DNA of 64,000 nt from positions 11,054,001-11,118,000 of the forward strand of contig CM069875.1 in NCBI GenBank assembly GCA_036172665.1, read 5' to 3'. The DNA comes from Prosopocoilus inquinatus. Lineage: Eukaryota; Arthropoda; Insecta; Coleoptera; Lucanidae. Under the pieces are notes generated by a model. That model was not told where the DNA came from. It made no database searches and saw nothing but the letters and a program-made list of their open reading frames with translations. Shown here piece after piece: positions 4,790 through 49,519 of the stretch. Position 1 is the first letter of the stretch; the number at the start of each line of letters is the position of its first letter. Position numbers and translations under genes: made by a program.

Positions 4790-5510
4790 AGGAGTCAAAA
4801 ATACATATAAAATTTTGTTCAAAAAGCACTGATACCTCTTTTATTCTAGACCCCTCAATTACTTAACTTACTTTAAGAAATGATAAAGAAATCAATTACT
4901 TGGCCTTTACTTGACTAATTAAAAAGGAATTTATTTATGACACTTATTAAAATGTTATGTACGTGAAAAACTTACCGAATCATTTTTTCCAGCAAGGAAA
5001 TAATAAACGTCAAGAACTTGAAACGCATGTTTGTAATTAAGAATAAATTAATTTTTATAAAGTAGTTATCCTTTGTAACTCGTACAAGTGATGTGATCAC
5101 TATAAACGAAAGACTGACGGTGGTAACCAAATTTTAAGCATGCTAATATTAATGAATATTTCAAGGTTTTCCACTAAATGCTTTCAAAGACAAACAAGAT
5201 TTTTATAGTAGGTACATTAATTTGGAAAATAAAAACGTGAATTTGATAGACCTGGAAAATAAAAATTAATAATAAATTCAATTTTAAAGTCACATACGTA
5301 AAAAATATACCGAGTGTCTCATAACGTGTGAAGGCGATTGAGATTGAAAAGGCAACTACAGCAGATCAAAATAATTTTTTTTCTTAATTTGCTTTTGACC
5401 CGTACCAAATGCCTAACAAGAAAGTCACAGCAGTTTAAATTTCTTTTCAATTTAACACCAATTTCTGATTAATCAATAAAATGTGTATCACAAACTAAGG
5501 TTTCATTAAA
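4790..5510. other. AT-rich stretch without recognised features
   Basis: No coding potential or repeat structure that I could recognise on either strand. Confidence 0.35.
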
Positions 5511-5511
5511 A

Positions 5512-5820
5512 AAAATTGTTGCAAACCGTTTTTGATTGCAGTGAAACCCTCGAGCAGCGTCTATACAGCTGTTTCAGCCCTATCTGGGGCTTCTTCAGCA
5601 GAAGCGTAGCTTGGGAGTTCCAGCGCAAAGCAAAACGATTCAACCAAGGATAGTAATAAATAGTTTAAACAGTGACATCCTAAGATCGCTTTTTGACCTA
5701 ACATTGCACTAGGATTGACAAATTGAAGCCAGTTTGCTACATAATAAGTCATCTCATGCAAGGCGGCCATGCTTGCTGTCATTATGCTTTGACAGAAAGC
5801 ATGGCCGCCTTACTTATAAT
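5512..5820 (-). mobile_element. Hammerhead-bearing repeat, divergent copy
   Basis: From 5512 to about 5783 this follows, on the minus strand, the 311-bp monomer seen twice at 46 kb: the 'tttttgattgcagtgaaa' block, the hammerhead segment, 'gacatcctaagatcgctttttgacct', and 'gcaaggcggccatgcttgctgtca'. It then turns around (5784-5812, 'ttatgctttgacag'...'gcatggccgcctta' in plus sense), giving a short inverted tail. There is no open frame of note. Internal inversions occur in other copies of this family too. Confidence 0.7.
5550..5614 (-). ncRNA. Type I hammerhead ribozyme, copy 1
   Basis: Minus strand: core CTGAAGA (comp. 5592-5598), stem II AGCCC/GGGCT with loop CAGATA, then GAAA (comp. 5572-5575) running into the palindrome ACAGCTGT (5565-5572) as a loopless stem III. 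Predicted cleavage follows the A at comp. 5564. Stem I next to the core is weaker than in the 46 kb copies (G-T, T-A, C-G, T-A) and the outer stem I is partly decayed. All core residues (C3, U4, G5, A6, G8, A9, G12, A13, A14) are present. Confidence 0.65.
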
Positions 5821-6397: not shown

Positions 6398-8649
6398 TAA
6401 AGAGCGGATTCTATGCTAAATGCATATTGCATGCATATTTTGCATATTTGAGCATTTTGTTCAATTTTCGCATATTTCTTAAAAACGTGCATATATATGC
6501 ATATTTGAAAGAATTTGTGTCGAAGTGAGTAAATTTTTTCCTGAATTCTTAATTCGTCAGAACATGTTGTTGCATTAATTAGGGTCTAGTTTGCACCCTT
6601 CTTGGGCTTAAGCAGGCAGAATTTTCCAAGTAGTGAATTAGGGATTTCCAAGTACTTTCTTAACGATGCGGTGGGGCGTTCATGTTTGCAATATTGTTTC
6701 ATCACTTCTTCACGGATTATTAGTCGGTTATTGCTGCGAACGTTTAGTTCTTCCGTAAAAGTATTTTTGTTTGTGAGAAGTGCAATATGCCGAAAGACAA
6801 TTCGAGCCTGGTTAATTCCTGGATCAGCCCGAGCTTGCTTACACCAATGGAAGCGTATTCTGTAAAGCCTGTAGTAAAATGGTAAGTTTTAAGTTTGTTT
6901 TCTTCCTCCTTAGGTAAATATTTGCTTGGTTCTTGAATATTGAAAGTTCAGACAGTTTAAAAAAATTCAAGTTCTTGTTGTAGATACCAACCCAACGAAA
7001 ATTTTCGGTCACACAACATGTCGGGACAGAACTACACAAGTCAAAATGCAAGAAGATGAATGAATCGAAAACATTTCAATTACCCTTAGACAGTGGACCG
7101 TCGTTGATGACTTCATCTAATGAACAACAAGAATTTAATGCTGATTTATGCGAGGGGATGATTTGTGCAAACATACCTTTGAAAAAACTGCAAAATTCTA
7201 TTTTTAAAAGTTTTTTGGAAAAATATACCAAGAAAAATGTTCCCGATGAAAGTACGTTAAGAAAAAATTACGTGCCTCGCATCTACAACGATACTCTAAA
7301 AGAAGTCAAGAAAATCGTAGAAAAATCAATATACTTATTTTATTGTGGATGAAACTACTGATTCTTGTGGGCGTTACATTGTAAATTTGTTAATAGGGTC
7401 TTTGCGGGAAGATAAACCTAGTGAATCTTATTTAATAGCCTGTACACAGTTAGACAAAACTAATCATTTAAGTATTTTAAGATCTGTTAATGAATGTTTT
7501 ATGAAATTTTTCTCACCTAATGTAGTTCCTACTGAAAAAATTTTACTTGTGGTATCAGATGCTGCCCCTTACATGGTTCAAGCCGGGCAGCAATTTAAAA
7601 CAATTTATAAAAATTTAGTTCACGTGAGTTGTTTAGCTCATGGATGTAACAAAGTAGCTGAACATATTAGATGTGAATTTTCTGATGTAAATCTACTAAT
7701 TAGTACCATTAAAAAAATATTTGACAAAAGTCCCCTACGAGTTCAGTTGTACAGGGAAAAATTGCCGAATGTACCTTTACCTCCCGAACCAGTGTTGACT
7801 AGGTGGGGAACTTGGTTGGAAGCGGCAATGTTTTATGCTGAACATTTTGTAGCAATTAAGGAATTGGTTGTAGAGTTTAATGCCTAAGATAGTGCTGCTA
7901 TTGCAAAGGCACAAAATATTGTAACAAAAACTTCATTGGCAAATCAACTGAACTTCATCAAAATGCATTACAGTTTTGTAATTCAAACTATAAACAATTT
8001 AGAAAAACCGAAAATGTCTTTAATAGAATCCGTTAAAATTGTTAAAGAATTTAAAGAGAATATTTCAAAAATTCCAGGTAAAATCGGCAGTACAGTAAAT
8101 AAAAAATGTTTATCCGTTTTAGATAAAAATAGCGGCTTCAAAACCCTTGAGGAAATTTACGAAATTTTGAATGGAAACTTTGAAATTGACTTAAGTGTAG
8201 AATTTTCAGCTATGAGTCACTTTAAATATGCCCGAATTACCTCCGTGGATGTTGAAAGGAGTTTTTCAATTTATAAAAATATTTTGTCAGATAAAAAGCA
8301 AAATTTCCTGGTAGAGAACTTGGAAAAACACATTGTTGTAAATTATAATCGAAATTTTTTAGTCGTTATAATATTTACTTAATAATGTACATACATAATA
8401 TACATACTTCCTTCATATAAGCGTTTACAAATAAATGTAAATAAATTGTATAAAATATAATGTTTTTTATTTGAATAAGAATGCCCATAAAACACAGTAG
8501 ACCAGTTATTGCATTATTTGAAGTGTTCGGCCTATCTTGCACATATTTCGCCATTTTTAGTGCATATATATGTGCATATTTCATCATTTTTTAGTGCATA
8601 TATATGCGCATATTTCATCAAAATTACTCGCATATAAATCCGCTCTCTA
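6398..8649 (+). mobile_element. hAT-superfamily DNA transposon, full-length, inactive
   Basis: The ends are TAAAGAGCGGATT (left) and the inverse TAGAGAGCGGATT (right), flanked by a perfect 8-bp duplication GTTATTAG (6390-6397 and 8650-8657). Eight-bp duplications and TA..G-type ends are hallmarks of hAT elements. Subterminal regions are packed with GCATAT/ATATGC motifs (6416-6510 and 8538-8630), plausible transposase-binding repeats. The 2252-bp element holds a single broken transposase gene. Confidence 0.9.
6787..8382 (+). pseudogene. hAT transposase with BED zinc finger, frameshifted
   Basis: Encodes, in pieces, a hAT transposase. Exon 1 (ATG 6787 to about 6881) contains the start of a BED finger (VFCKACSKM) but needs a one-base shift near 6838. 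A GTAAGT donor at 6882 and an acceptor AG at 6982-6983 bound a roughly 102-bp intron, after which the finger's histidines follow (QHVGTELH). From 7056 the frame stays open to about 7325. A one-base shift then leads to the catalytic region: YFIVDETTDS (first Asp, about 7348), VVSDAAPYM (second Asp), CLAHGCN and TRWGTWLEAA. A TAA at 7885 interrupts the same frame, which resumes to the C-terminal dimerisation region VDVERSFSIYKNILSDK (catalytic Glu) and stops at 8380-8382. At least two frameshifts and one nonsense codon mean it is inactive. Seen: motifs and breaks. Known: hAT D-D-E arrangement. Confidence 0.85.
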
Positions 8650-13621: not shown

Positions 13622-13666
13622 TTCTGCTGACGAAGTCCCAAATAGGACTGAAACAGCTGTACAGAG
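13622..13666 (+). ncRNA. Type I hammerhead ribozyme, copy 2
   Basis: CTGACGA (13627-13633), stem II AGTCC/GGACT with loop CAAATA, GAAA (13650-13653), palindromic stem III ACAGCTGT (13653-13660), predicted cleavage after A13661. Stem I pairs TTCTG (13622-13626) with CAGAG (13662-13666), including a T-G at its end. All core residues are intact. The preceding 'aaatagcgacatcctgcgatcg' (13600-13620) belongs to the same repeat in opposite orientation, so this copy also has an internal inversion. Confidence 0.7.
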
Positions 13667-13669
13667 GAA

Positions 13670-18040: not shown

Positions 18041-19339
18041 CGTGGGCTGCTCGAAAATTTTCTGGATTCTAGTAGGTCTAAAATTGTTAGCGTTTATCAA
18101 CTGTCATATTTGAAAAATTTGACGTTTTTCGCCTATAATTCTATTGACAGTTCCTATCCAAGAGAACTAGTTTTGTTTGTACAGCATTTGGGAAAAAGTA
18201 ATTTTGTGTAAACATGGAAATCTCGCGTGAAAATTTTCGTGCCATGATTTTTTACGATTTCAAATGTGGTCTAACGCCGAAACAATGCCTCGATCGGCTT
18301 CATTTGGCTTTTGGAGATGAAGCACCATCAAAGAGCAGTGTTTATAATTGGTTTGCCGAATTCCAGCGTGGACGTACCTCTCTCAGTGACGAATTTCGTG
18401 AAGGTCGTCCATCAACATCTATTGTTGCCACTAATGTAGATGCTGTGCGTGAAATGCTTGAGCGAGATCGACATGTGACATACCGTGAGATTCAAACATC
18501 CTTACGCATTGACATGAAAGCAATACACCAGATTTTGCATGATCATTTGAACGTACGAAAGCTTTGCAGTCGTTGGATCCCACACAATTTAACAGAAGCG
18601 CAAAAGCGGGGTCGTGTCAAACGGTGCGAGGAAATGCTCAAGAAATTCAATGGAGGTCATTCAAATTTAGTTTATAACATCGTTACTAGTGACGAAACGT
18701 GGATCTATTCGTACGAGCCAGAAAGTAAACAACAATCTACCGTTTGGGTATTTCAAAATTAACCAAAACCAACAAAAGTAGTCCGTTCACGCAGTACTGC
18801 GAAGCAAATGATTGCTTGTTTCTTTGGTTTAACTGGACATGTAGCAACCGTGGCTCTAGAGGATCGAAGAACCGTGAATGCTGATTGGTATACTACAATT
18901 TGTTTGCCGGAAGTAATCGATCAAATAAGAAGAAACAATCGAAATCGACGAATTGTTCTCCATCATGACAACGCCAGCTCTCACTCAGCCCGTCAAACAG
19001 TTGATTTTTGTCCAACAAATATGTTGAATTAATGACTCATTGTCCATATTCACCTGATTTATCACCTAATGATTTCTTTTTGTTCCCAAATATCAAAAAT
19101 AAAATTCGAGGTGAGCGATTTTCGTCTGCTGAAGCAGCGGTTGAAACATTCCGGACACTGGTTCCTGAGGTACCATCTTTAGAGTGGAAAACGTGCTTTA
19201 GAAATTGGTTTGAGCGTATGCAAAAATGTATTGACGTCAAAGGCGAATACTTCGAAAAGTAATGATACCGTTTACCAAATTTCATATGCGTTTTTTCGTA
19301 CTGTTTCCAGAAACTTTTCCAGCAGCCCACGTAGTTTGG
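18041..19339 (+). mobile_element. mariner transposon, decayed
   Basis: Candidate inverted ends: 'gtgggctgctcgaaaatttt' at the left and its near inverse 'cttttccagcagcccac' at the right, about 1.3 kb apart, the normal size of a mariner. I do not see a clean TA duplication at these points, so the exact termini are tentative. Confidence 0.65.
18214..19262 (+). pseudogene. mariner transposase, one nonsense and one frameshift
   Basis: Roughly 350 codons, the usual mariner length. The N-terminal half holds the paired helix-turn-helix region (SVYNWFAEFQRG near residue 40, GRPSTS). The catalytic triad is visible: TSDETWIY (first Asp), VLHHDNASSHSA (second Asp), YSPDLSPNDFF (third Asp). Thirty-four residues separate the last two, the D34D signature of mariner. 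A TAA at 18760-18762 interrupts the frame after STVWVFQN, and a one-base deletion near 19013 shifts the frame before SNKYVELMTHCPYSPD. The reading otherwise runs to the stop at 19260-19262. Seen: motifs and lesions. Inferred: inactive copy inserted inside a foldback. Confidence 0.9.
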
Positions 19340-19726
19340 ACCTGAATTTCGTAGTTGTTGCAACAAAACACCTGACTTGAATTTTTGATTAACATTCCCG
19401 ATTTCTCCCGCAAATTTGTATATCCCGCAAAATTCCCACCACCATTTTTCCCAAAATTCAAGAAATTTCCCGGCCATTGGCAGCACTGTAATCGGCATAA
19501 CCGCAAGCAAAACCCACTTACTTTCTTGCTGATTACTAATGCGCATGCCGAATGTTTTATCGCCGGGCTTTTGAGACCGGCGATTTTGTTGTACTCCGAG
19601 TGTTCCAAGAGCGTAATTTATGAACGTTGGAACAAGTAACTCCTTGGGCAGAGTGTGTGTTTATGAACGACTTTTGTGTGAATGTTCGCTTAGAGCGTCC
19701 CTCGAGTGTTATTTATGAACGCACTC

Positions 19727-19813
19727 CAGAGGCCGCTCGAGGTTTTCACTGCAGTCAAAGACGATTTGCAACAAAATTTTTATATAGATAAAAACAGCGA
19801 CATCCTACGATTA
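19727..19813 (+). mobile_element. Hammerhead-repeat fragment starting at the cleavage site
   Basis: Begins CAGAGG, the first bases downstream of the predicted ribozyme cut, follows the monomer through 'cgctcgaggttttcactgca' and 'aacaaaattttt', then switches to the opposite-sense end 'gataaaaacagcgacatcct'. The catalytic core is absent. It abuts the outer end of the foldback that finishes at 19727. Confidence 0.6.
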
Positions 19814-23407: not shown

Positions 23408-23470
23408 TACAGCTGTTTCAGCCCTGTTTGGGGCTTCATTAGCAGAGACGTAGCTCGATATTCCCACTGC
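23408..23470 (-). ncRNA. Hammerhead ribozyme remnant, core mutation
   Basis: Minus strand: CTAATGA where CTGANGA is expected (core G5 replaced by A), then stem II AGCCC/GGGCT, GAAA and ACAGCTGT. The repeat stops at the predicted cleavage position (23408), and unrelated sequence follows, so the downstream stem I strand is missing. Predicted inactive. Confidence 0.6.
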
Positions 23471-24056: not shown

Positions 24057-24474
24057 TTATTCAGTTCTATTTAATTTTTTAATTATATTGCCGTGAACGT
24101 GCCCCAGAGGCCACCTGTTGGTGGGTATCTGGAATAATGAAGGAGGGGTACCAGGTAAGCGGGATGTGAGAGACACAGTGACTAGTGGAAGGTGCTGCCT
24201 GGTACACCTCCTCTTTTGGGGGACAATAAACTACTTATATAACCGGAGACGGGAGTAATTTTTGGATCCCCCATAGAGAACTGCCGGTAAGTACCCTTTT
24301 CATTGTCACAGGTACCTCGAGCTAGCGCGACGACCCCCCAAAAGAGAGGGCTACGACCCCCCAAATTTCGAACCCTCGGTGGGGTACGTAACAATATTTA
24401 GTAGTCTATGCAATATTTTTTATACAAGCCATAGACCACTAAATAAAATTAAAAATTTCAAATTGATAGAACTG
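24057..24474. mobile_element. GC-rich TIR element with ATTCAGTTCTA ends
   Basis: 'attattcagttctatttaat' at the left is inverted as 'tagaactgaataat' at the right. The interior is unusually GC-rich, with C/G runs ('gaccccccaaaagagag', 'tttgggggac') and a small hairpin near 24395-24440. It does not encode a recognised protein. Origin unknown; it may carry captured sequence. Confidence 0.5.
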
Positions 24475-24484
24475 AATAATTATA

Positions 24485-24932
24485 AAAAAATTTGTGCAGA
24501 TCGTTTTTGATTACAGTGAAAACCTCGAGCAGCCTCTGGACAGCTGTTTCAACCCTGCTTGGGGCTTCGTCAGCAGAGACATAGCTCGACATCCCCACTG
24601 CAAACAAAAACGACTTGTCCAATTTATCCGCAATTGCGATGTAAGAGTGATGAACAGATAAAATATCGACATCTTATGATTGCTTTTTGACCTGACATTG
24701 CAGTAGGATAGCCCCAAGCAGGACTGAAACAGCTGTACAGACGCTGCTCGAGGTTTTCACTGCAATCAAAAACGATTTGCACAAAATTTTTTAAAAACTT
24801 TCATTATGCTTTGACGGCAAGCATGGCCGCCTTGCATGGGGGACTTATTAGGAGCAAATCCGCTTCAATTTGTCTATCCTACTGCAATGTCCGGTCAAAA
24901 AGCGATCGTAAGATGTCGCTACTTTATCTGTA
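24485..24932. mobile_element. Hammerhead-bearing repeat insertion, copy at 24 kb
   Basis: Two pieces of the 311-bp monomer in opposite orientation: minus sense 24485-24709, plus sense 24710-24932. Flanked by the 10-bp direct repeat AATAATTATA (24475-24484 and about 24933-24942). The outer ends are 'gcacaaattttt' (minus sense, left) and 'ctactttatctg' (plus sense, right), the same two ends as in the 46 kb insertion but swapped. The plus-sense piece starts inside stem II, so it holds no complete ribozyme. Confidence 0.75.
24525..24589 (-). ncRNA. Type I hammerhead ribozyme, copy 3 (intact)
   Basis: Minus strand: outer stem I TCGAGC/GCTCGA, inner stem I GTCTCTG/CAGAGG, core CTGACGA, stem II AGCCC/GGGTT with loop CAAGCA, GAAA, palindromic stem III ACAGCTGT (24540-24547), cleavage triplet GTC with the cut between 24539 and 24538. 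The unpaired bases between the two parts of stem I are where type I hammerheads make loop contacts with stem II. Every conserved core base is present. Confidence 0.8.
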
Positions 24933-25048
24933 AATAATTATAGTGTTTTATCTGAAAATCTTTATTTATATACATTATTAACATCGTGTACTTACAGTCC
25001 TCTGTACCTAAAATGCGCGCGAACCTCGCACTTTTGCTACAAAGTTTA

Positions 25049-28473: not shown

Positions 28474-29967
28474 CTAAATTAAAGAATTTTGAAAACCCGC
28501 AAACTTTTTAAGACCTATTGCAATCAATATTACTACAGTCACAGTGAAAATATGAGGTAAACACTTAAAATTACGCTTCATTAATAAATGAGTTAAGAAA
28601 GAAATTTTTCCCTCTGAGTAAGGTGGATAGCGTGCTGATGCTATTTTTTCTGCAATAGGGTTGTAATTCTTACATAAGCAAGTTTTCTTATGTGAGAATG
28701 TATCAAATGAATATTTATCATGATATTGTCCCATTCCGCTACATCCAATTCCTCCAAATGGAACACCATCTGTCACGAAATGCATAATGGTATCATTAAT
28801 ACAAACTCCACCACTAGATGTTCTTTTCAAAAACATATCAACAATTTTTGACTTAGAGGAAAATACATACAGAGCCAAAGGCTTCTCTCGATTGCAAATA
28901 AATTCAATTGCATCCTCTGCACTGGTGATGTTCACAATAGGCAAAATAGGACCGAAAATTTCTTCCTGCATAACTGAGTCAGTTGATTTAACATTGATCA
29001 GAACAGTAGGTTCTATAAATTTATCTTTCAGATCAGTATTACCACCAATAGCAATAGTTCCATCTTTAAGATATGCAGAGATTCTTTCAAAATGCCTTTC
29101 ATTTACAATTCGACTGTAATCTGGTGAATTTCGGATATCTCCTTTAAAGAAATCTTGGAGGACTTTTTCTGCACACTTCACAAATTTTTCCTGTACTTCT
29201 TTTGTACACAATAAATAATCAGGAGCGATGCAGGTCTGTCCTGCATTAACACATTTTCCCCAAAGTATGCGACGTACCGCAACTTCAAAATTAACACTGT
29301 CATCAAGATAAACCGGGCTTTTCCCACCCAATTCCAGTGTTGTTGGAGTTAAATATTTATTAGCAGCCGCATGTACTATTCTACCCACTACAGTTGAGCC
29401 TGTATAAAAAATGTAATCAAATCTTTCTTTCAGTAATTCTGTTGTTTCATGAACCCCTCCAAGAACCACCTGATAACAAGTGTTATCTAAGTACTTTGGA
29501 AGAGTTTTTCTTATAAACTCAGCAGTAGCAGGTGCTAATTCTGAAGGTTTTATTATAACACAATTGCCAGCTGCAATAGCTCCAGCTAAAGACACGAAAA
29601 TCAACTGTACAGGATAGTTCCATGGTCCTATGATTAAAACTACTCCAAATGGCTCACTGTACACGAATACACCATCAAATAAATTAGCCAATGCTTTAGC
29701 TGGTCGTTCAGGCTTCATCCAAGCCTTCAGATTGAACAGAATGTTGCGCACATCATTAATTGCAACGTTTAGTTCGGTAACAACAGCTTCCTGTTTACTT
29801 TTACGCAAGTCTGCATGCAACGCTTTTGCAATTTCTTCGACGTTTTCTTCATATAAACGGAGTAAGGCTTGCAACTGCTTCTGACGAAATTCAAATGGTC
29901 TCGTCTTGCCACTGAAGAAGGTTGCTCTAACAGTTTCCATAGTTTTTGTATAATTTGAAGTTGTCAT
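28474..29967 (-). CDS. Aldh-III: Fatty aldehyde dehydrogenase, ALDH3 family, membrane-anchored
   Basis: 497 aa, single exon. Predicted to oxidise long-chain fatty aldehydes to fatty acids with NAD(P)+, tail-anchored in the ER or a related membrane. Visible ALDH motifs: GPWNYP (114-119, oxyanion-hole Asn117), general base Glu212 in [10 protein letters not shown], nucleophile Cys246 in [10 protein letters not shown], cofactor-binding EEIFGP (335-340) and [11 protein letters not shown] (403-413). The final ~25 residues form a hydrophobic helix ([18 protein letters not shown]) like the anchor of ALDH3A2-type enzymes. Start ATG 29967 has A at -3 and leaves a family-typical N-terminus. A paralogue in the same orientation lies at 47904-49349. 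Absence of introns could reflect an old retrocopy or intron loss. Seen: all motifs and the C-terminal helix. Inferred: substrate and location, from family knowledge. Confidence 0.95.
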
Positions 29968-30239
29968 TTTAAATTAGTGCTTTAACATAAAACAAAGTTA
30001 TCAGAATATTTCAATTAACAACTATTTTGCAAAAATTCTTACAAGTAATTAATTCATTGTCATTATTATAAATGTCAACAATTCAATCCAAGTACCAGTG
30101 TTGCCAACATTTGAACTGAACTCAGCCACAAAATCATTAGACCCATTCAGCAGACCCAACTGTTGTGCAACAATTGACTAAATTTTTGCTGAATGGAAGT
30201 GATCACTTTCTGATGAGTTAGAAATCGCCATGTAGCGTA

Positions 30240-31706
30240 AAGCCGGCTACTCATTACGCGGTACTTGGCAAGTGACATAATTTTAGAGTTGTGTCGTTCA
30301 CGAACGATTCAGTTGTTTCGAACGAATCTTTTGAGTAAAGGTTCGTTCATTTCGTTCGTTCGTGAATGAACGAATCTTTTCGAACGATTTGATTCAGAAG
30401 AACGAATCACGATGCACCGCAGCTTCCAATTTTATTCGTGCATATTTCACCTCTTGTTTTCATGTATTTTAATTATGAAAATATCTTATATGAATCATCC
30501 TGTATATTTTTACATTTTCGAAGAAAGAATAAAATTACTTTATCAATAACACAGCACAGTATATTAATCAAAAAGTTTGTAAAATATACGGTTTTCAATG
30601 ACATTTATAATGTTCAAGTAGGCTGTGCGTGAAGATTTTTAAACAATTTAAATTTTCTGTCAAATCTCAGTCAGATTATTTGAAATATATCTGAGCGTAA
30701 AAGAAGTGTTGGTTGGAAATATTTTAGTGTTTTTAATATAAATAAAGGAAAATGTAATTATTGTTTGAAAGAAGTGATTATGGCGGAAATCGATATAACA
30801 TGTATGGCGAGCGACCCGATCCGTTCTTTCATTTACCTCGTTCATTTCGTTCAAATCGTTCATCTCGTTCATATCGTTCACTGACTCAAAGATTCGTTCG
30901 TTCGTTTTTTTAAGAACGAATCTTTTGAGTCGTTGATATTAATAATATGAACGATTCGTTCATGAACGACACAACTCTACTTAACTTGGCAAGTACTCGG
31001 CGAGTATTTGTGCAAGTAAAAGTCGAACCGTACACATTACTTGGCTACTTCTACGTAGCCAGTCCGTTTAAAGCCGGCTACTCATTACGCGGTACTTGGC
31101 AAGTACTTGCCAATACTTAGCAAGTGTCGAGTAATGCGTATTAAAACGCGGCGTGCAACTCGACACTACTTGCCACGTTACTTGTACTTCCCATTCGTTG
31201 TAGGTAAACTATCCAAAGTCAAACGGGCAAGTGTTAAACGGATTGACTACGCAGAAGTAGCTGAGTAATGTGTACTTGGCAAGTGAATTAACTTGGCAAG
31301 TACTCGGCGAGCATTTGTGCAAGTAAAAGTCGAACCGTACACATTACTCAGCTACTTCTACATAGCCAGTCCGTTTAACACTCGCCCGTTTGACTTTGGA
31401 CAGTTTACCGACAACGAACGGGAAGTACAAGTAACGTGGCAAGTAGTGCCGAGTTGCACGCCGCGTCTTAATACACATTACTCGGTACTTGCTAAGTATT
31501 GTCAAGTATTTGCCAAGTACCGCGTAATGAGTAGCCGGCTTAACACTTACCCGTTTGACTTTGAATAGTTTACCGACAACGAACGGGAAGTACAAGTAAC
31601 GTGGCAAGTAATGCCGAGTTGCACGCCGCGTTTTAATACACATTACTCGGCACTGGCTAAGTATTGGCAAGTACTTGCCAAGTACCGCGTAATGAGTAGC
31701 TGGCTT
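30240..31706. mobile_element. Foldback cluster with AAGCCGGCTACTCATTACGC arms
   Basis: The arm 'aagccggctactcattacgc' occurs at 30240 and 31074 in plus orientation and inverted at about 31514 and 31706. Between are many copies of ACTTGGCAAGT and 'gtcgaaccgtacacattact'. At least two overlapping foldback units are present. It ends 170 bp upstream of the UBL4A start, so it could supply or alter that promoter. Confidence 0.7.
30286..30977. mobile_element. Nested element with GAGTTGTGTCGTTC ends and TCGTTC repeats
   Basis: Inverted ends 'gagttgtgtcgttcacgaac' (left) and 'gttcatgaacgacacaactc' (right). Both subterminal regions contain many copies of TCGTTC/GAACGA (30295-30410 and 30822-30970). It interrupts the first arm of the surrounding foldback ('acttggcaagtga' | 'ttaacttggcaagt'), whose uninterrupted version is seen near 31276. 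Confidence 0.7.
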
Positions 31707-31875
31707 AATACGATCTCCATTCATTGCAACGCGTTCTTTTAGATTGGCAACAATGAAGACCGATGACTCAGTATTGACACTAATGACAGTTTTACAATTC
31801 CTAATTCTCATTTAAGAACTGATGTTCTTTAATTATTTAACTATAATTTGAAAGTAATCCTTTGAATCTTTTAAA

Positions 31876-45944: not shown

Positions 45945-46010
45945 TGACGTAGCACTGGCCACCGTATGACTTCCGGGTTCGCCGAAAGTGACATCAACTT
46001 TCTTATTTTA
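45945..46010 (+). repeat. Left half of the dispersed repeat split by the hammerhead insertion
   Basis: 'acttccgggttcgccgaaag' and 'caactttcttatttta' match the inverse of 9155-9215. The other half resumes at 46763-46850. Confidence 0.7.
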
Positions 46011-46191
46011 CAGATAAAATAGCGACATCTTACTATCGCTTTTTGACCTGACATTGCGGTAGGATAGACAAATTGAAGCGGGATTTGCTCCTAATAAGTC
46101 CCCCATGCAAGGCGGCCATGCTTGCTGTCAAAGCATAATGAAAATTTTTAGAAAAATTTTGTGCAAATCGTTTTTGATTGCAGTGAAAACC

Positions 46192-46256
46192 TCGAGCAGC
46201 CTCTGGACAGCTGTTTCAGCCCTGCTTGGGGCTTCTTCAGCAGAGACGTAGCTCGA
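46192..46256 (-). ncRNA. Type I hammerhead ribozyme, copy 4 (intact)
   Basis: Minus strand: outer stem I TCGAGC/GCTCGA, inner stem I CTCTG/CAGAG, core CTGAAGA, stem II AGCCC/GGGCT with loop CAAGCA, GAAA, palindromic ACAGCTGT as a loopless 4-bp stem III, cleavage after GTC. Such a short stem III favours action as a dimer or in tandem RNA. Confidence 0.85.
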
Positions 46257-46649
46257 CATTTCCACTGCAAACAAAAACGACTTGCCCAATTTATTCGCAA
46301 TTGCGATGTAAGAGTGATGAACAGATAAAATAGCGACATCTTACTATCGCTTTTTGACCTGACATTGCAGTAGGATAGACAAATTGAAGCGGGATTTGCT
46401 CCTAATAAGTTCCCCATGCAAAAACGATTTGCACAAAATTTTTCTAAAAATTTTCATTATGCTTTGACAGCAAGCATGGCCGCCTTGCATGGGGGACTTA
46501 TTAGGAGCAAATCCCGCTTCAATTTGTCTATCCTACTGCAATGTCAGGTCAAAAAACGATAGTAAGATGTCGCTATTTTATCTGTTCATCACTCTTACAT
46601 CGCAATTGCGAATAAATTGGGCAAGTCGTTTTTGTTTGCAGTGGAAATG

Positions 46650-46714
46650 TCGAGCTACGTCTCTACTGAAGAAGCCCCAAGCAGGGCTGAAACAGCTGTC
46701 CAGAGGCTGCTCGA
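46650..46714 (+). ncRNA. Type I hammerhead ribozyme, copy 5 (intact core)
   Basis: TCGAGC (46650-46655), CTCTA (46661-46665), CTGAAGA (46666-46672), stem II AGCCC/GGGCT, GAAA (46689-46692), ACAGCTGT (46692-46699), C46700, predicted cut 46700/46701, CAGAG and GCTCGA (46709-46714). One difference from copy 4: A instead of G at the base before the core, which breaks the first pair of stem I. Confidence 0.82.
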
Positions 46715-46764
46715 GGTTTTCACTGCAATCAAAAACGATTTGCACAAAATTTTTCTAAAAATTT

Positions 46765-47178
46765 TCTTATTTTAAATGGAATGGCCTGTATATTTTTACA
46801 TATTTGGAATCTACGGATCACTATGAGTCCGAATCTGTATTACTTGGGCATTTTGGTTTTGTGCCAAATCTAAAAAAAATTTTCTTTACAAATTTTTGGT
46901 GAAATATGTAGAAAATAAAAAGTTACGGATATTATACTAAAAGTTACCCCTCAAATTAACCCTTAATAAAAGGGAGGATCTGATAAATATGTTTTTAATA
47001 TGCAGTTAGGTGCCTTTTATCGGAGTTTAAACATTAATTAGTTTGATAACTTAAAGGATACAGAAAATATTGCCAAGAAAAAAAAACAATATTTTGCACC
47101 TCTTTTTCAGGGCTTATAACTCCTTCATTATTATTATAATATTATTATTTATTAACAATTAAGTCTCTTTTTACAAAA
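46765..47178. other. Right half of the split repeat and AT-rich spacer
   Basis: 46775-46850 continues the dispersed repeat ('tttttacatatttggaatct', 'acggatcactatgagtccga'), matching the inverse of 9090-9150. The rest up to 47178 shows nothing recognisable. Confidence 0.5.
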
Positions 47179-47511
47179 GTGAAAGATCCATTTAACAAAT
47201 TCAAACAAATTAATTCTATTTATGAAATTCCTTGTCATGATTGTGATTCTGTTTATATTGGCCAAACATCAAGAACTCTTCATTCGAGAATTATTTCTCA
47301 TAAAAGTTATATTAGACTTAGATCTAATGCTTGTGCTTTATCTGAACAGGCCAATAATGAAGACCATAAGATTAATTTTGAAGATGCAAAAATTTTAGAT
47401 ATTGAACCAATTTTGAGTCAAAGACTCTTTATTGAAATGTGTCATATTTTTTGTAATAAAAAAAGTATCAACAAAAGAACTGATATTGAGAAACTTAGTT
47501 GTATTTGCTAA
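47179..47511 (+). pseudogene. Penelope-like element GIY-YIG endonuclease fragment
   Basis: About 110 codons. The start INSIYEIPCHDCDSVYIGQT is the characteristic GIY-YIG entry of Penelope-like retroelements (Cys pair, then VYIGQTSR), followed by LHSRIISHK and a C-terminal part ending in a stop (TDIEKLSCIC). The reverse transcriptase that should precede it is absent; upstream sequence is AT-rich and unreadable. It is either the 3' remnant of a 5'-truncated insertion, common for these elements, or a decayed copy. Lies 400 bp from the hammerhead insertion and converges on the second ALDH gene. Confidence 0.8.
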
Positions 47512-47903
47512 AAAGAAAGACAATCAAGATGTTGGAAATCAAAATTTACATCGAATTACCTAATAATGAATAAACAATTTTTCTATCGTGATTCAATTTT
47601 CTAAATTCAATTTACAATTTATTCAGCTTTCTATAAGTCCTTGTTGAGCTCACTTAAGTAGATCAGGAAGTATACTGTTCGAAATTTTTCAAAATAAAAA
47701 AAATCATGCATTGAAATCCTAAAAGATCGTATCTTTTATTTTGTACCTACATTACAAAATAATTAAACTGTAAAATATGTTCTATGAAATTATTTCAAAG
47801 CATTTGAAGATGCCATTTAATCAAAAATAGAATTGTACAAAAAATACGTAACTCTTTTAATTCATTATTTTTCTGTTAAGATGACAAATTCAGATTTGAA
47901 AGT

Positions 47904-49349
47904 TTATACATTAACATCCGTTTTGCTCCATTTATGTGTTAATTTTCCAAAAGTTCTTTTCGTCAGCAATTGAGTTAAAAACGTGGTTTTTGCCTTGGAA
48001 TAGGGTGGATATCGAGCAGACCCAATGTTCTCCAAAATGAAATTGTAATTTTTATACAAACATGTTTTTTTGTGGGTGAAGGTGTCGAAAGAAAATTTTC
48101 CATGGTAATGACCCATACCACTATAACCAACGCCTCCGAAGGGAGTGTTACTTGTGGCGAATTGCATGACAGTGTCGTTCACACAAACCGATCCGCTGGA
48201 TGTTTCTTTTAAAAACAAATTTACGATTTCTTTATTCATACTGAAAATATACAGAGCCAAAGGTTTTTCGCGCTCATTAATAAAATGTATGGCTTCTTCT
48301 GCGTTCTTCACGTTTAAAATTGGTAAAATGGGACCGAAAATTTCTTCCTGCATTACTGGCTCTGCTGGATCGACGTCTATTAAAATAGTCGGTTCTACGA
48401 TTCGTTTTTCTTGGTAAACCGTCCCGCCCAATGCGATTTTACCGCATTCTAAAAAAGAAACAATTCGCTCAAAGTGATGATCGTTCACGATTTTGCAAAA
48501 ATCAGGAGTTTCTTGTATTTTATTTTTGTAAAATTGCTTCAAAATTTTGGTCGCTGCTTGAATAAATTTGTCTTGCACATCTTTCGCGCACAAGACATAA
48601 TCCGGGGCTATACAAGTCTGTCCGGCATTGATACATTTTCCCCAAAATATACGCTTGACAGCCACGTTCATGTTAACACTATTGTCTATGTAAACTGGGG
48701 ATTTACCTCCTAGCTCTAACATAACAGGCGTTAGATGTTTATTAGCTGCAGCATGGACTATTCTGGCAACTTCAGTCGAACCAGTGTAAAAAATATAATC
48801 GAATCTTTCATTTAACAGTTCCCCAGCTTCTGAAGCACCGCCGCAGAATACGCGATAGCATTCGGAATCCAAATACTGTGGAATTGTATCTGCCAAAAAT
48901 TTTGCAGAGGCCGGGGCTTGATCAGATGGTTTGATTATCACGCAATTTCCACCTGCAATGGCCCCAGCAAAAGGTAAAAGCGGTAACTGCAAAGGATAAC
49001 TCCAGGAGCTCATAATTAAAACTACCCCATAAGGATCGTTAATAACATACACATCATCGAAAACATTAATCCAGGATTTAGCAGGTTTTGTCGGTTGCGA
49101 CCAACTCTTCAAGTTCATCAAAATGTTCTTCACATCGTTTATCAATAGAATAATTTCCGTGACTATTGTTTCTTGTTTACTCTTATGCAGGTCTGATTCT
49201 ACGGCTTCTACCATTGCCGTGATTTTTTCTTGATACATGCGAAGAAGTGCTAATAGTTGTTTTTCTCGAAATGCCATTGGCTTAGTTTTGCCGTTCATAA
49301 AGGCATTTCGTACAGATGCGACGATTTGCGAAGGGTCTTTGTTACTCAT
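47904..49349 (-). CDS. ALDH3-family paralogue, altered oxyanion motif, no anchor
   Basis: 481 aa, single exon, roughly 60% identical by eye to the gene at 28474 and collinear with it. Catalytic Glu212 ([10 protein letters not shown]) and Cys246 ([10 protein letters not shown]), EEIFGP and [11 protein letters not shown] are kept. However GPWNYP is replaced by SSWSYP (114-119), so the Asn that stabilises the thiohemiacetal oxyanion is Ser. The C-terminus ends in polar residues ([20 protein letters not shown]) instead of a hydrophobic helix, so a soluble protein is predicted. The open frame is intact, arguing for selection. Possible roles: an ALDH with altered activity, an esterase-like or binding protein. 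Gene duplication followed by divergence is the likely origin; both copies lie in the same orientation 18 kb apart. Confidence 0.92.
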
Positions 49350-49519
49350 TTTTCGATTTTTATGACTGTAGAATGGAAAGTTTTGATTTCATTTCTATGC
49401 GGGATTTTTGCCACTTAAAATTTTTGAAGGGTGTTAATTGACAATGACATTTTTCTAATTTCTATCAAGAAGCATATATGAAGTGCAATGCTTGGTAAAG
49501 TCAGATTTATAGTTGGCTG

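Follow-up and report, generated by a model that had tools for sequence, protein, structure and literature searches.

We consider it likely that the 752-bp insertion described here is a retrozyme-like copy whose two arms were written by a Penelope-type enzyme, which copied a probably circular RNA off both cut strands of the target DNA, starting at one fixed site of the RNA (A) on one strand and at another (B) on the other. It lies in the window, the whole stretch of 64,000 nt of Prosopocoilus inquinatus DNA that was analysed. The inversion of its repeat units, mentioned as a mere detail in the preliminary description of this DNA, is its most informative feature.

The insertion occupies positions 46011-46762, is non-coding and is flanked by a 12-bp target duplication, TTTCTTATTTTA, as had been described previously. 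Its composition of 311-bp units, first in tandem and then inverted, was also confirmed: the direct copies 46010-46110 and 46321-46421 are 98% alike at a spacing of 311, and the inverted arms are 99% complementary over 282 nt. Unit positions (u) are numbered from the predicted hammerhead cut. The features of the insertion are as follows:
45999-46010, left copy of the 12-bp target duplication TTTCTTATTTTA, with AAC directly before it
46011-46421, minus strand, left arm of 1.3 units, with its outer end at site B (u195) and reaching u96
46141-46160, minus strand, further copy of the site A hairpin AAAATTTTTCTAAAAATTTT
46192-46256, minus strand, left hammerhead, predicted cut between 46206 and 46205
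46419-46421, inversion junction, 3 letters common to both arms
46419-46762, plus strand, right arm of 1.1 units, from u30 to its outer end at site A (about u63)
46435-46454, plus strand, further copy of the site A hairpin AAAATTTTTCTAAAAATTTT
46650-46714, plus strand, right hammerhead, predicted cut between 46700 and 46701
46746-46765, plus strand, site A hairpin AAAATTTTTCTAAAAATTTT (u46-65) at the right end of the insertion
46763-46774, right copy of the target duplication, the first letters of which double as element letters

The ends are ambiguous by a few bases, as the duplication and the element overlap by up to 4 letters on the right and 1 on the left, and the site reads AAC-TTTCTTATTTTA-AAT. 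No stop-to-stop frame of at least 110 aa lies inside the insert, in agreement with the earlier statement that no protein is encoded, and its frame listing contains neither a reverse transcriptase nor a GIY-YIG frame. The GC content of the 311-bp family is 42%. The circles predicted from the two units of the window fold with -106.2 and -112.8 kcal/mol, compared with -73.0 kcal/mol (sd 5.0, n = 100) for circle folds of the shuffled left unit; in both predicted folds site A forms a hairpin beside the base of the long stem-I arm, and site B lies across that base from site A, partly unpaired.

The type I hammerhead layout of metazoan retrozymes is present, with three helices and a 35-base core, CTGAAGA-AGCCC-CAAGCA-GGGCT-GAAA-CAGCTGTC, which is exact twice, at 46206-46240 (minus strand) and 46666-46700 (plus strand), and with one mismatch in the stems of the right copy; the mean number of core matches expected from 100 shuffles is 0.00. 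Direct pairing yields, in both hammerheads, helices I and II together with a helix III of 2 bp that is closed by a palindromic AGCU loop; an internal loop in stem I and a 6-nt loop 2 are found as well. Both had been called intact, which holds for the left one, where all 7 inner stem-I pairs form on direct pairing (one of them T.G), but not for the right one, which has an A.C mismatch at the first inner stem-I pair, beside the cleavage site; at u276, G was called in 140 of 144 units. In the predicted free-energy minimum of the hammerhead 65-mer, CUG pairs with CAG and stem III is not formed, and a stem III of 2 bp with a palindromic AGCU loop makes action as a dimer possible. The match to a hammerhead covariance model that had been anticipated was absent, Rfam giving 0 matches across the whole window at its curated gathering cut-off. 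With loose thresholds, the sole hammerhead match was that of Hammerhead_HH9 to the left copy, with 16.6 bits (E 0.59) against a cut-off of 52; this cut-off is a criterion of the tool and lies outside the published definition of a metazoan non-LTR retrozyme. The top loose matches, to bicoid_3 and miRNA families, were rejected, since the simplest reading of them is a hairpin formed by the inverted repeat, and there was no hammerhead among the 15 loose Rfam matches for the loci L105 and L061. Conservation among copies gives no support for the ribozyme, since the hammerhead segment is no less diverged (0.029) than the rest of the unit (0.028), 69 of 144 segments being lower.

Allowing up to 3 mismatches, the core was found 9,086 times on the forward and 9,126 times on the reverse strand of the 650-Mb genome (18,212 in all), compared with 0 and 0 for the control, namely the core pattern read backwards. 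Long tandem arrays of 311-bp units are present, e.g. at L016, L023 and L025, so that other tandem copies do exist in the genome, as had been predicted. The assignment to a retrozyme-like family proposed earlier is supported by the 311-bp unit, the type I layout, the tandem copies, the GC content, the duplications and the absence of a protein. A scan of IMG/VR with a degenerate core gave 0 matches. The window itself contains another recognizable copy:
24475-24942, second insertion of the family, with two arms and an exact repeat

Its minus arm (24473-24711) has the outer end at u67 (A) and its plus arm (24710-24931) at u196 (B), and it includes a third core copy, with 2 mismatches, at 24539-24573 (minus strand), which was missing from the preliminary description. 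The arms are enclosed by a 10-bp exact repeat, AATAATTATA (24475-24484 and 24933-24942), with AAC before and GTG after it, which by eye extends to 12 letters if one mismatch is allowed. Further pieces of the family, older and diverged (77-92% alike), were noticed at 5506-5811, 13623-13667, 19725-19784 and 23409-23470, with no clear duplications in the three examined.

Apart from this family, the window contains two related aldehyde dehydrogenase frames, 28474-29973 and 47904-49388, both on the minus strand and coding for 499 and 494 aa, which represent a local gene duplication; their nearest named relatives are insect enzymes, with scarab beetles among the first, the best three being those of Trypoxylus (64%), Anopheles (58%) and Popillia (63%). 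The frame 18202-18762 (plus strand) contains a Mos1-type HTH_48 domain and is probably a relic of a mariner-like transposon, the frame 7321-7887 (plus strand) contains DUF659 and is probably a relic of a hAT-like transposon, and at 31375-31708 a 165-bp unit is present twice in tandem (93% matches) inside an open frame.

The unit was mapped onto 104 loci, namely the 8 best matches to the window insertion, 34 further places of the same search, 30 loci around the endonucleases of a Penelope-like family (PLE-1, see below) and 32 of the 72 clusters that were obtained at a 1.2-kb limit from the first 100 exact cores listed on contig C1. After dropping L006, L007 and L043, which repeat other loci, and clusters shorter than 150 bp, 79 clusters were kept, and outer ends were classed as A (u60 ± 16) or B (u199 ± 13). 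Two arms, with the minus arm on the left and the plus arm on the right, are present in 62 of the 79 clusters, the outer ends corresponding to RNA 3′ ends on both sides, and the strand changes among the 100 listed C1 cores run from minus to plus in 19 cases out of 19. The outer ends of the 62 two-armed clusters are A/B in 35, B/A in 20 and B/B in one (L061, which has no duplication), the remaining 6 having an end elsewhere and none of these 6 a duplication of at least 9 bp. All 47 two-armed clusters with a duplication of at least 9 bp are either A/B or B/A. The same was seen in the C1 set, picked solely by the exact core, where A/B or B/A ends were found in 25 of 27 two-armed clusters and in 22 of the 22 with a duplication.

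Two divergent arms are thus present in 47 of the 53 sampled insertions with a duplication of at least 9 bp. A duplication is present in 6 of the 17 single-orientation clusters; on inspection by eye, four of these (L025, L038, L085 and L101) show a short opposite arm starting from the other site, L039 has only 3 letters of such an arm and L015 none. The end positions are narrow: when the duplication is 11-13 bp long (36 insertions), the A end falls within u53-63 in 33 cases and the B end within u191-201 in 35, the two sites being 138 nt apart on the unit.

The duplication is at least 11 bp long in 44 of the 79 clusters and exactly 12 bp in 24, whereas pairing the left flanks with the right flanks of other loci gave repeats of at least 11 bp in only 6 of 790 combinations. 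When 21 exact-12-bp sites were placed in the A-left order with no fitting, the three letters before the repeat were A (17), A (12) and C (9), and the three after it G (12), T (19) and T (17). For 42 sites of 11-14 bp with the register fitted, the corresponding counts were A 36, A 29 and C 23 before, and G 17 (with A 14 and C 10), T 31 and T 31 after. The retrozyme target consensus is AAC-N12-GTT, which is palindromic. A duplication with cDNA on both of its sides would require 12-nt 3′ overhangs on both strands.

Penelope-like elements are present in the same genome, as would fit the description of metazoan retrozymes given in the accessible part of PMC7229834, and one of them is represented in the window:
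47147-47547, plus strand, PLE-1 fragment, the end of an ORF with a GIY-YIG endonuclease (frame 47140-47511; GIY-YIG E 0.0061, below the Pfam cut-off)

This relic adjoins the retrozyme insertion and is no part of it. The PLE-1 family was collected by its endonuclease, and its copies end either at GAATTGATTC or, when tailed, about 30 nt further. All 13 two-ended PLE-1 insertions have one short and one tailed end, and 12 of them have duplications of 11-16 bp with one mismatch allowed, L044 having none. Four of these insertions, L049, L052, L053 and L057, share flanks at different places and go back to one insertion that was copied along with the neighbouring DNA, perhaps as part of another mobile element, so that about 10 of the 13 are independent.

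The second family, PLE-2, was found by searching the genome for the GIY-YIG family, which gave 150 scored matches. Its frames reach 788 aa (e.g. C2:41411689-41418268), with RVT_1 in a 480-aa part (E 3.5e-14) and GIY-YIG at the frame end (33.4 bits, above the cut-off), and many copies score the same 33.4 bits; judging by sequence, the family looks recently active. Among 120 of the 840 relatives of its reverse transcriptase, many are 780-800 aa long with RVT_1, some of them also with GIY-YIG, and the first two named ones come from Aromia and Tribolium. Neighbouring PLE-2 matches within 10 kb are oriented minus then plus in 47 cases, both minus in one and plus then minus in none, and some copies are complete back-to-back pairs. 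Of 18 divergent pairs inspected, 4 short ones over their full length and the other 14 at their flanks, every one combines a short with a tailed end and shows an exact repeat of 11-17 bp; the tailed end lies 36-38 nt beyond the short one, and a hammerhead core, CTGAAGATGGTAACTTCGTTACCGAAATACGTATTC, precedes the short end by about 48 nt, as counted by eye.

For a comparison of targets, six flank positions were scored with the retrozyme matrix against 1,000 AT-matched random sets. The 17 PLE-2 sites (the one with the 17-bp repeat was dropped) had a mean of 1.0 compared with -2.25 (sd 0.79) for the random sets, 0 of 1,000 being as high, and the retrozyme sites reached 3.71 on their own matrix, a value which is not independent and lies above that of PLE-2. 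The 8 PLE-1 sites (L068 dropped; L044 without a repeat) had a mean of -2.46, and 571 of the 1,000 random sets were as high. PLE-1, suspected as a helper since its fragment adjoins the insertion, thus failed the target test. Its 8 sites fit a different palindromic flank, roughly ATA-N12-TAT, and each Penelope family may have a target of its own. Of the two families examined, PLE-2 or a relative of it is the more likely helper; given that PLE-2 fits the target more weakly than the retrozyme and PLE-1 does not fit it, the true helper may be another family. The start-site letters of PLE-1 or PLE-2 show no likeness to sites A and B above background, and no mixed retrozyme-PLE insertion was found among 71 loci, the one PLE-1 piece in L083 lying away from the retrozyme. 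Pieces of the retrozyme were observed in 8 of 29 PLE-1 loci (L044-L072, each about 3.4 kb, that of the window excluded), which is possibly more than expected.

The following course of events is proposed. Multimeric transcripts would be cut by the hammerhead into monomers, which would be joined into circles, as reported for other animals in the accessible part of PMC7229834. A dimeric Penelope protein would then hold the RNA at its two start sites and cut both DNA strands, leaving 12-nt 3′ overhangs, each of which would prime one cDNA, the first strand using site A and the second site B, and the two cDNAs would finally be joined in the middle of the insert through short shared letters. Since the retrozyme RNA carries no protein gene, offering two start sites would be all that is required of it. 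According to the accessible part of PMC11167929, the Anolis Penelope protein, which is predicted to be a dimer, cuts and extends both strands in vitro and has two internal start sites, with no difference in start site observed between the strands. This last observation weighs against the proposed explanation, as do the lack of likeness in letters between sites A and B and the Penelope-like elements, the absence of mixed insertions, the weaker target fit of PLE-2, the hammerhead segment being not less diverged, the result of the subfamily-matched control given below and the loci L015 and L039. The more general reading, that Penelope retrotransposition is an obligate two-site, two-strand reaction and that retrozymes are circular RNA parasites carrying both start sites, has in our estimate an even chance of being right; if it were, every complete insertion would record both cDNAs.

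The agreement between the arms of a locus, taken over 9 diagnostic sites, averages 0.934 (54 of 59 loci comparable, 40 fully), compared with 0.564 and a maximum of 0.695 in 1,000 permutations of arms between loci, so both arms derive from one kind of RNA. Both arms cover 236 rare variants, and 19 of these occur in the two of them, compared with about 3 expected. Part of the agreement reflects a common subfamily, since a subfamily-matched control shrinks the same-RNA signal to 0.94 vs 0.87 (231 tests), and an origin from one RNA molecule is no more than likely. Tandem units within an arm agree at 698 of 760 calls for 13 diagnostic sites (6,668 of 11,425 between loci), as if one circle had been read round, which speaks against the template having been a linear multimer transcribed from a tandem array of the genome, even though a single array would match too. 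The two strands would still be primed at A and B in that case, and we regard such a template as possible but doubtful. Long arrays do exist, and a multimer would also yield arms that exceed one unit in length, as 23 A arms and 21 B arms do among 57 insertions. According to the accessible part of PMC11167929, the Penelope protein used mainly uncleaved RNA as its template; circles, for their part, are the abundant form in other animals according to PMC7229834, in its accessible part.

The fixed ends bear on the question of whether LINE-type twin priming moved the retrozyme, with Penelope-like elements only resembling it. In L1 twin priming the outer end is the 3′ end of the RNA, and inversion occurs in only part of the copies. 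Like the retrozyme, L1 gives inverted 5′ pieces, minus then plus, between target duplications (PMC2837659, accessible part). The retrozyme differs in that its outer ends are two internal fixed sites, one of each in 47 of 47 insertions, and that two arms are the rule; moreover, the duplication is sharply 12 bp with a palindromic target, and both Penelope-like families examined share the anatomy, which makes this an improbable explanation.

The inner junctions vary between copies, and 1-6 letters are shared at 33 of the 57 inner joins. Self-priming, in which the inverted arm arises when a cDNA or an antisense RNA folds back, was proposed for the head-to-head copies of rotifer Penelope (PMC3846280, accessible part), and the near-palindrome of site A could fold back in this way; a few junctions, e.g. 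in L025 and L087, are indeed near the fold-back point. However, junctions within 15 nt of that point are at chance level (5 of 57 against an expectation of 5.7, and 4 of 26 against 2.6 for the C1 set), and the second outer end being always at the other fixed site is left unexplained, so self-priming is very improbable, and priming from both cut strands fits better. Satellites and foldback transposons also show short units in tandem and inverted, but an origin at the DNA level (satellite amplification, a foldback DNA transposon or an assembly artefact) can hardly be reconciled with dispersed insertions that have 12-bp duplications, inner junctions varying by copy and fixed outer ends unlike each other.

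Priming of both cut strands by a Penelope-type enzyme, the explanation preferred here, can finally be set against the known systems. Plant LTR retrozymes resemble the element in being non-autonomous, in possessing hammerheads and in having a circular RNA intermediate, the circles being only predicted in our case; they differ in having type III hammerheads located in LTRs, circles of 600-800 nt and 4-bp duplications (PMC7229834, accessible part). The likeness to metazoan non-LTR retrozymes, as described in the accessible part of Cervera and de la Pena (2020, PMC7229834), extends to non-coding monomers of 170-400 bp in tandem with GC below 50%, duplications of more than 4 bp, copies in the thousands and coexisting Penelope-like elements; the short stem III and its palindromic loop have a counterpart in the retrozymes of salamanders. 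The two-arm A/B insertions, the sharp 12-bp stagger and the palindromic target set the present element apart from that description. Animal retrozymes, their circles and Penelope as a suggested mover have already been published (accessible parts of PMC7229834 and PMC7761336), Penelope-like elements being named there only as likely candidates. Neither a rule of one site per strand nor divergent two-arm retrozymes were found in the PMC literature that was searched, including the accessible part of PMC8490949, subscription papers being mostly outside this literature. The element is a further member of a known retrozyme kind, and the anatomy of its insertions is the new part. Thousands of copies are present in the genome, and those sampled define where copying starts, how wide the stagger is and which target is preferred, and point to a candidate helper with long open frames.

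Unlike the retrozyme, which encodes nothing, Penelope-like elements encode a reverse transcriptase and a GIY-YIG endonuclease, and the end sites of the retrozyme are 138 nt apart compared with 30-38 nt in the Penelope-like elements, their letters being unlike. Nevertheless, divergent arms with two end sites (short and tailed in the Penelope-like elements) are common to the retrozyme's anatomy and that of PLE-1, PLE-2, rotifer Penelope (PMC3846280) and Anolis Poseidon (PMC11167929), the latter two as far as the accessible parts of these papers describe them, and the families of this genome share with the retrozyme the stagger of about 12 bp and, in PLE-2, a hammerhead. Rotifer Penelope copies have head-to-head inverted ends with a tail optional on one of them (PMC3846280, accessible part), and the reaction proposed here suggests why Penelope copies are inverted and have a tail at one end only.
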